64,000 nt of DNA, taken from Pseudohalocynthiibacter aestuariivivens (GTDB taxonomy: Bacteria > Pseudomonadota > Alphaproteobacteria > Rhodobacterales > Rhodobacteraceae). Both the position numbers and the translations under genes were made by a program. The DNA lies in assembly GCF_018457175.1 (NCBI RefSeq), contig NZ_JAGFNU010000006.1, forward strand, positions 124,001-188,000, written 5' to 3'. Positions 11,914 through 13,318 of the stretch are shown one piece after another. The notes below the pieces were generated by a model that saw nothing but the letters and a program-made list of their open reading frames with translations, did no database searches and was not told where the DNA came from. Position 1 is the first letter of the stretch. The number at the start of each line of letters is the position of its first letter.

Positions 11914-12363
11914 TCATTTCCTGTCGGGTGGGCTGATCTGATCAAGGCGTGAAGCAACACTTTCTATTTCCGACGCGCTAAACCTGTCTTCCAGCAGTTT
12001 TTTCAAACACTCTTCATAAACGGGCCACATCTTTCGGCGGGTTTCCCTTCCGTCTTTCGTAATTCTTACAGCGTGCCCCCTGCCGTCTGAGTCACAGGCA
12101 ATCCTGGAAATTAACCCCGCGTTTTCAATTTTGTTCAATAAACGCGAGGTCCCGTATTGCGGCAACAATAACTGATCCTTCAGCGCGTATGGCCGTATGC
12201 CTTCTTTTCCTGCCTTTTCGATTTCGAGCAGGGCGTCATACCAGTTTAGTGGTGGCAAACTCTGCGTTGCCAACTCGGCCTCGATAAACGCGAGCGCACG
12301 TTCGCTTGCGCGCATAAGGCTTTTCCACAGATCGATAGTTTCATCTTTGATTTGTTTAGCCAT
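11914..12363 (-). CDS. MarR-family transcriptional regulator
   Basis: 149 residues with a MarR winged-helix core: WYDALLEIEKAG, the recognition region LLLPQYGTSRLLNKIENAGLI and the wing DSDGRGHAVRITKDGRE. The frame is open to 12441, but that start would lie inside an operator, so the ATG at 12363 is preferred. It is divergent from a glutathione S-transferase gene across 98 bases that hold two copies of one inverted repeat. The natural reading is an autoregulated repressor of itself and the GST, relieved by an electrophile or aromatic ligand; the ligand is unknown. Confidence 0.85.
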   Translation of the reverse strand: MAKQIKDETIDLWKSLMRASERALAFIEAELATQSLPPLNWYDALLEIEKAGKEGIRPYALKDQLLLPQYGTSRLLNKIENAGLISRIACDSDGRGHAVRITKDGRETRRKMWPVYEECLKKLLEDRFSASEIESVASRLDQISPPDRK

Positions 12364-12377
12364 ATCGGGTTCATGAC

Positions 12378-12401
12378 ATATAGATGCAAATGCATCAAGG
12401 T
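12378..12401. promoter_or_regulatory. Probable MarR operator, marR-proximal copy
   Basis: Core GATGC-AAAT-GCATC (12383-12396). The marR-side arm ATATAGATGC (12378-12387) is identical to that of the second copy; the other arm diverges outside GCATC. Its edge lies 14 bases upstream of the marR ATG, where it would block transcription or initiation of the regulator gene. Confidence 0.6.
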
Positions 12402-12423
12402 TGACTCTAAAATATATCCACCC

Positions 12424-12447
12424 ATATAGATGCGATTGCATCTATAT
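12424..12447. promoter_or_regulatory. Probable MarR operator, GST-proximal copy
   Basis: A perfect inverted repeat: arm ATATAGATGC (12424-12433), spacer GATT, arm GCATCTATAT (12438-12447). Its edge lies 14 bases upstream of the GST ATG, the same distance as the first copy from marR. The centres of the two sites are 46 bases apart. Palindromes of this size between a marR gene and its divergent target are the usual MarR binding sites. Confidence 0.7.
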
Positions 12448-12461
12448 TAAAGGATCACCAA

Positions 12462-13154
12462 ATGACACTTCACCTGATCAGCCACCACCTGTGCCCTTAT
12501 GTACAACGCGCAGCCATTTCACTTGCAGAAAAAGGCGTTTTGTTTGACCGTACGTATATCGACCTCTCGAACAAACCTGACTGGTTCCTAAAAATTTCGC
12601 CGCTTGGAAAAACACCTGTATTGGTGGCAGAGAATACTCCAATCTTCGAATCCGCAGTTATTCTGGAATATCTTGAAGATACGCAACCAAACCCACTTCA
12701 TCCCAATAATCCTCTGACACGTGCGCGTGACCGGGCTTGGGTTGAGTTTGGATCTGCTATTCTGAACGATATTGCGGGGTTCTATAACGCGGATAACTCT
12801 GAGAACCTCAGCAAGAAATCGATTGCGCTCTCTGAAAAATTCACCCGCTTAGAGACGGAGATTGGCGAGGGGCCCTACTTTAACGGTGCTGATTTTAGTC
12901 TCGTTGACGCAGTTTTCGGCCCAGTCTTTCGGTACTTCGATGTCTTTGACCAAATCCTTGACCACTCAGTTTTTGAGGGCAAACCCAAAGTGGCCCACTG
13001 GCGTGCAATGCTGACAAAAAGACCTTCAATTGTCGAAGCTGTATCGTCGGATTACAATAATCAACTGCTTGAATTCCTAAAAAATCGCGATTCACACCTT
13101 GCTGCGCTTATCGCCTCTGCAAACCTCGCGCCAGCGCTAAGCAACGCGCTGTGA
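12462..13154 (+). CDS. Glutathione S-transferase family protein (Cys-type)
   Basis: 230 residues. The thioredoxin-like N-domain has CPYVQRAAI with Cys11 at the usual active position of omega/beta-like GSTs, the cis-Pro region LGKTPVL and ESAVILEYL for the gamma-glutamyl contact; an all-helical C-domain follows with SLVDAVFGPVF. Such enzymes usually do glutathione-dependent thiol transfer or reductive dehalogenation rather than classic conjugation. AGGATC precedes the start. It is divergent from the MarR gene and probably repressed by it. A hairpin terminator lies beyond the stop. Confidence 0.85.
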   Translation: MTLHLISHHLCPYVQRAAISLAEKGVLFDRTYIDLSNKPDWFLKISPLGKTPVLVAENTPIFESAVILEYLEDTQPNPLHPNNPLTRARDRAWVEFGSAILNDIAGFYNADNSENLSKKSIALSEKFTRLETEIGEGPYFNGADFSLVDAVFGPVFRYFDVFDQILDHSVFEGKPKVAHWRAMLTKRPSIVEAVSSDYNNQLLEFLKNRDSHLAALIASANLAPALSNAL

Positions 13155-13226
13155 GCCGCTGACAGACCGTCTGATCCAGGGTCGGATTGCGACGTGTTAT
13201 TCTGAAATTCAAGCGAGCTCATAAAA

Positions 13227-13262
13227 AAAACCGCAGCCATTCCTGAACGGGGCCGCGGTTTT
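13227..13262. terminator. Bidirectional rho-independent terminator
   Basis: Arms AAAACCGC (13227-13234) and GCGGTTTT (13255-13262), with an A-run on the left and a T-run on the right, so it can end transcription both of the GST gene (plus) and of the response regulator gene (minus), which converge here. Confidence 0.65.
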
Positions 13263-13318
13263 CGTTTGTTAGGTTGGGATGGTTGGCTGCTGACACCAAC
13301 CATCCCTTTGGCAGTTTA

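Follow-up and report, generated by a model that had tools for sequence, protein, structure and literature searches.

The window, a stretch of 64,000 nucleotides of the Pseudohalocynthiibacter aestuariivivens genome, carries a pair of divergent genes, one coding for a MarR-family regulator (P0001) and the other for a glutathione S-transferase (GST, P0002), whose start codons (12363 on the minus strand and 12462 on the plus strand, respectively) are separated by 98 nt (12364–12461). A repeat search finds two related sequences in this gap, CATATAGATGCAAATGCATC at 12377–12396 and CATATAGATGCGATTGCATC at 12423–12442, identical at 18 of 20 positions and 46 nt apart from start to start or centre to centre. 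The GST-proximal copy forms a perfect palindrome with 10-bp arms (12424–12433 and 12438–12447) across GATT, and the outer edge of each repeat lies exactly 14 nt from the nearer start codon. The matched repeats, the perfect pairing of one copy and the 14-base distances had been pointed out in an initial annotation, and all three are borne out. When the gap was shuffled 500 times with its dinucleotide composition kept, palindromes with arms of at least 10 bp turned up in two of the shuffles, whereas no shuffle held a pair of 20-mers that agree at 18 positions or more (best 15). The features of the locus are as follows.

11914–12363, minus strand: gene of the MarR-family regulator P0001, 149 aa, ATG at 12363; PF12802, 39.3 bits (cut-off 27)
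12378–12396, no strand: O3, the regulator-proximal predicted operator, with the core ATGCAAATGCAT at 12384–12395; conserved in relatives
12401–12406, plus strand: -35-like TTGACT of the predicted GST promoter, 17 nt from the start of the O3 core and 29 nt ahead of that of O1
12423–12430, plus strand: probable -10 of the GST promoter, CATATA (16-nt spacer) or TATAGA (18-nt spacer), an inferred element
12424–12447, no strand: O1, the GST-proximal predicted operator, 10-bp arms across GATT; conserved in relatives
12430–12441: core of O1, ATGCGATTGCAT
12449–12454, plus strand: Shine–Dalgarno-like AAAGGA, 7 nt ahead of the ATG of the GST gene, assigned from sequence
12462–13154, plus strand: gene of the glutathione S-transferase P0002, 230 aa; PF13409, 66.6 bits, with PF13410 and PF00043 also above cut-off

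The family assignments of both genes, likewise proposed in the initial annotation, agree with the Pfam results: P0001 exceeds the curated cut-off for the MarR winged-helix domain, and P0002 carries both the N- and the C-terminal GST domains. PDB matches of P0002 include omega- and tau-class GSTs, and the protein has a CPYVQR motif, presumably like that of cysteine-type GSTs. Among PDB entries, a profile of the regulator family picks up MarR chains (best E 6e-20), the second-best match being 3zpl (E 6.7e-18), which we take to be the SCO3205–DNA complex. The best NCBIfam match of the regulator is HpaR (TIGR02337), of which it is not a member (29.4 bits, cut-off 121.2); it passes none of the specific NCBIfam models. 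The only cysteines of P0001 are at positions 90 and 119, so the N-terminal sensing cysteine of the OhrR/EstR peroxide-sensor kind is absent. Cys90 is the sole common cysteine, present in 23 of 39 homologues (Cys119 in one), and a cysteine-sensor reading was dropped on the ground that Cys90 is not conserved. The longest open reading frame (ORF) of the regulator, 175 aa, opens at an ATG at 12441, within the GST-proximal palindrome; this is probably not the real start, because the aligned homologues begin near the start at 12363. The ATG at 12441 is open to choice by automatic annotation. On the 3' side of the GST gene, at 13224–13266, the inverted repeat ACCGC ... GCGGT, preceded by a stretch rich in A and followed by one rich in T, resembles by eye a two-way terminator; a terminator scan reported none there.

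Of 195 genomes searched with P0001, 76 contain a match, its own included, the best other being 49% identical; a homologue from a Rhodanobacteraceae metagenome-assembled genome (L009) is 54% identical. A profile built from 12 sequences (E 1e-25) had matches in 19 of 385 genomes of the class, 30 of 398 of the phylum and 39 of 394 of the family, three draws that overlap and each of which counts the window's own genome. From the matches listed, at most 30 per search, 75 loci were analysed, of which 56 score at least 140 bits, L009 passing this filter on an assigned placeholder of 205 bits and not on a computed score; the main statistics exclude the 19 that score lower. Dropping regulators at least 80% identical to one another reduced the 56 to 39, i.e., the window and 38 nonredundant homologues, which share 30–52% identity with P0001 across the aligned positions.

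An exact ATGC-N4-GCAT occurs in 35 of these 38 loci (66 sites altogether) no more than 150 nt upstream of where the profile matches the regulator, and 27 of them have at least two such sites. When all 256 half-sites were compared, the runner-up to ATGC reached five loci; in 300 shuffles the pattern was found in at most four, and in 150-nt control stretches, downstream and internal, in none of the 38. The shuffle statistics take no account of shared ancestry, which the 80% identity filter counters in part. The conservation of the repeat in orthologous gaps, proposed in the initial annotation as a check, was thus found, in a form different from the GATGC/GCATC core named there: GATGC-N4-GCATC is present in only 13 of the 38 relatives, and what is conserved instead is ATGCA-N2-TGCAT, with the outer G/C variable. 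This core forms part of an 18-bp palindrome, TAnATGCAnnTGCATnTA, conserved together with the regulator, whose half-site reads T (93%), A (57%), any base, ATGC and A (92%). Three of the 38 loci have no exact site close upstream of the regulator: L051, with one-mismatch sites only, L066, in whose stretch neither a GST nor DoxX was matched, and L105, where the site lies past an inserted gene, before DoxX. L103, L062 and L087 each have a single site. Four remoter homologues of the regulator (L112, L113, L115 and L118; 127–138 bits) adjoin a divergent gene of the YceI family (by Pfam for L112) and carry one related site, mostly with one mismatch, e.g., GATGTAATTGCATC in L113, which suggests a sister branch with similar recognition and another target.

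The targets in the relatives were assigned by tblastn, together with Pfam. In 21 of the 39 nonredundant loci the nearest upstream gene codes for a GST of the type found in the window, in six for a GST of a second type, and in six for DoxX followed by a GST-A; in four loci DoxX alone is found within the stretch, and in two neither a GST nor DoxX. In wide-spaced pairs, the window included, the distance from the site to the target's start is 13–22 nt in 18 of 21, with starts chosen by script.

The position of the sites relative to the GST promoter can be judged by comparison, since consensus promoter scans called no promoter in the gap and left TTGACT unreported; the -10 of the window is weak. 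In 20 of the 36 other gaps, the distance from the start of the regulator-proximal core to TTGAC, read on the target strand, is exactly 17 nt. It stands at 11 nt in four gaps, of which L067 has it at both offsets, and once at 22; 23 of the 36 have it at 17 or 11 and 13 at neither. With shuffled flanks the count of TTGAC never rose above two at any single offset. Wide pairs with TTGAC at 17 nt have 28–31 nt between the -35 and O1. O3 stands closer by 6 nt in L053, L098, L060, L109 and L111, of which two have TTGAAA, and the -35 lies 28–30 nt from O1 in four of these five and 34 nt in L098. Seven gaps with a 47-nt spacing between the sites have a mean pairwise identity of 0.46 outside the cores and TTGAC; TTGAC is identical in 7/7, and the identity of the cores largely results from the way these gaps were selected. 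All seven, like the window, have an A 6 nt ahead of the O1 core, where it forms position two of a hexamer lying 17 nt after TTGACN in the relatives and 16 nt after it in the window. The probable -10 region of the window overlaps the left (outer) arm of O1. Since TTGAC stands in a recurrent register with the regulator-proximal core, the O3 and O1 pair appears to bracket one target promoter, that of the GST, itself a prediction, and the probable order of the array is O3, the -35, the spacer, and the -10 in the arm of O1. The symmetric placement of the repeats described in the initial annotation stands as a near-symmetry, which recurs in relatives, but not simply as one operator for each gene.

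A third site, O2, is found in the -35/-10 spacer of L056, L058, L075 and L084, 20 nt from O1 and 27 or 28 nt from O3. Judging by spacing, other relatives keep O2 and O3 (27/28 nt) or O1 and O2 (20/21 nt), and the window keeps O1 and O3, 46 nt apart; spacings of 32, 33 and 39–43 nt are also seen. No TTGAC-like box was found in the examined stretch of the 20-nt pairs of L050 and L076.

The palindromes are very probably the binding sites of the adjacent MarR regulator itself, because its relatives in many other bacteria are likewise accompanied by similar pairs, placed about a promoter of this kind, and there is good reason to regard P0001 as an autoregulated repressor of an electrophile-detoxification GST, with the two palindromes as its operators, in line with the autoregulated switch read from the sequence in the initial annotation. 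MarR dimers bind palindromes of 16–20 bp, according to one report (PMC10458429), and in the resting cell one regulator dimer would occupy each of O1 and O3. At the GST promoter, a dimer on O1 would cover the -10 and the start region and one on O3 would lie against the -35, between this box and the regulator's start codon. From these positions it is proposed that, with both operators bound, the GST would be repressed and the regulator would curb its own synthesis, the latter through a promoter expected to overlap or adjoin O3, the core of which is 20 nt away from the regulator's start codon. A small electrophile or its adduct would release the regulator, and both genes would then be expressed.

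It is improbable that the sites serve instead for activation of the GST gene, or for its repression alone without autoregulation. Some MarR proteins act as activators, no clear promoter of the regulator was found, and an array acting in trans may serve a GST that has no divergent regulator: at L150 (1411–1470, genome G478) three sites spaced 28 and 20 nt, a complete array, surround TTGACG upstream of a GST gene that has no regulator next to it, as would be expected of a regulon in trans. However, the location of O1 on the predicted -10 and start, and of O2, where present, in the -35/-10 spacer, suits repression, while 11 of the 21 pairs with wide spacing (window included, starts chosen by script) have 20 nt between the regulator-proximal core and the regulator's start, which argues against control of the GST alone.

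The co-occurrence of the sites with the regulator bears on a further explanation, namely that they are bound by another, wider regulator or by a nucleoid protein and that the MarR protein is a mere neighbour. Exact sites precede the GST or DoxX-GST in 13 of 14 GST-A loci with the regulator in the stretch (window excluded), the lone exception, L140 (= L057), having a one-mismatch site, and in 2 of 15 GST-A loci without it, the other 13 having none (Fisher p = 2e-5). The 29 loci were not thinned for relatedness, L131 and L132 being near-identical, and many overlap with the 38 homologues, so that neither test is independent of the other. The two loci that carry sites without the regulator in the stretch, L136 and L150, would suit a wider binding protein, but both genomes encode the MarR regulator, G923 (L136) one inserted gene away and G478 far away (L063). 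The inserted gene of G923 (L105, 1938–2861, minus strand) lies between the regulator and the DoxX-GST target, on the regulator's strand, and codes for a Xi-class GST resembling glutathionyl-hydroquinone reductases (PDB matches include YqjG, E 2.5e-33); in spite of it, the site has stayed beside DoxX. Three GST-A genes, two in G155 and one in G375, have no sites though their genomes encode the regulator at another place, and the regulator therefore does not govern every GST-A.

A wider regulator also fits poorly with the 3.9-Mb genome of the organism. GATGC-N4-GCATC occurs there at eight places, six of them outside the gap, and ATGCANNTGCAT at six, five of them outside; all these outer copies of the two strict cores fall within mechanically found ORFs of unconfirmed gene status. 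A search with the two strict cores thus found no copies outside ORFs beyond the gap that would point to a further regulon in this genome, and the loose pattern with up to two mismatches, at 94 places versus 87 for a reversed control, is at the level of background; L040, the one place outside the gap that was inspected besides those shared with the strict patterns, lies inside an ORF. A weaker second target may exist in this genome under the general core ATGC-N4-GCAT, which is expected to match by chance at many places. Taken together with the tracking of the regulator by the sites, this makes binding by another protein very unlikely. That the repeats are functionless, arisen by chance or kept by shared ancestry of the gap, can practically be dismissed: the 10-bp palindrome by itself did come up in the shuffles, but the sites recur beside homologues 30–52% identical to P0001, with the sequence between them diverged.

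For the autoregulated repressor, the best guess at an inducer is a quinone-like compound. The guess draws on the company of the GST, of DoxX and of the Xi-class GST of one relative, whose insertion at L105 is a hint of a quinone-type inducer, and on a known association, MhqR-type quinone responses being linked to DoxX.

The nearest experimentally described design among the matches listed is that of EstR of Agrobacterium tumefaciens, a MarR-family repressor with a divergent target and two related palindromes in the gap, by which both genes, estC and estR, are repressed (PMC5201249). There, OI (footprint +16 to -18) lies over the -10 of the target and OII (-46 to -82) overlaps the -35 region of the regulator's own promoter. 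The likeness lies in the two related palindromes of a divergent gap, which are present in the window and, as two or more sites, in 27 of 38 relatives, although the operator role here is inferred. The operators differ, being GTTATCGCGATAAC in EstR and TAnATGCAnnTGCATnTA in the present family; EstR controls an esterase and senses by Cys16, whereas the present target is a GST and Cys90 occurs in 23 of 39 homologues. SCO3205, a MarR protein of Streptomyces, shares the MarR fold and has two operators upstream of its own gene, with the consensus TTnAAnnnTCAA (PMC3737563), but belongs to a subfamily different from that of P0001. MhqR-type MarR repressors of the quinone response, described for a staphylococcal operon (PMC6798810, PMC12893000), resemble P0001 at the family level. 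Among the matches listed, no title of a bacterial regulator study was found with the core variants as literature terms, and no earlier description of the present system was recognised, most subscription journals and regulon databases being outside the scope of the search.

The system would thus be a well-conserved one of the dual-operator MarR switch kind, similar to that of EstR. The case is evenly balanced for a broader view, in which P0001 belongs to an unnamed MarR subfamily with a three-slot array (O3, the -35, O2 in a 17-nt spacer, the -10 and O1, spaced 27/28 and 20 nt) that is kept whole or in part and combined with exchangeable targets. If this were true, lineages would hold all three slots, any two or one, as judged by spacing, and the exchangeable targets would comprise GSTs of two types, DoxX-GST and, in a single case, a Xi-class GST lying on the side of the regulator; the whole would amount to a single conserved switch for quinones or electrophiles in which the dose of repression can evolve. 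For a group of regulators that passes no specific NCBIfam model, an operator and a regulon can now be predicted and a few possible inducers named, and its natural two- and three-site variants may provide a ready series for learning how the number and position of operators around one promoter set repression.
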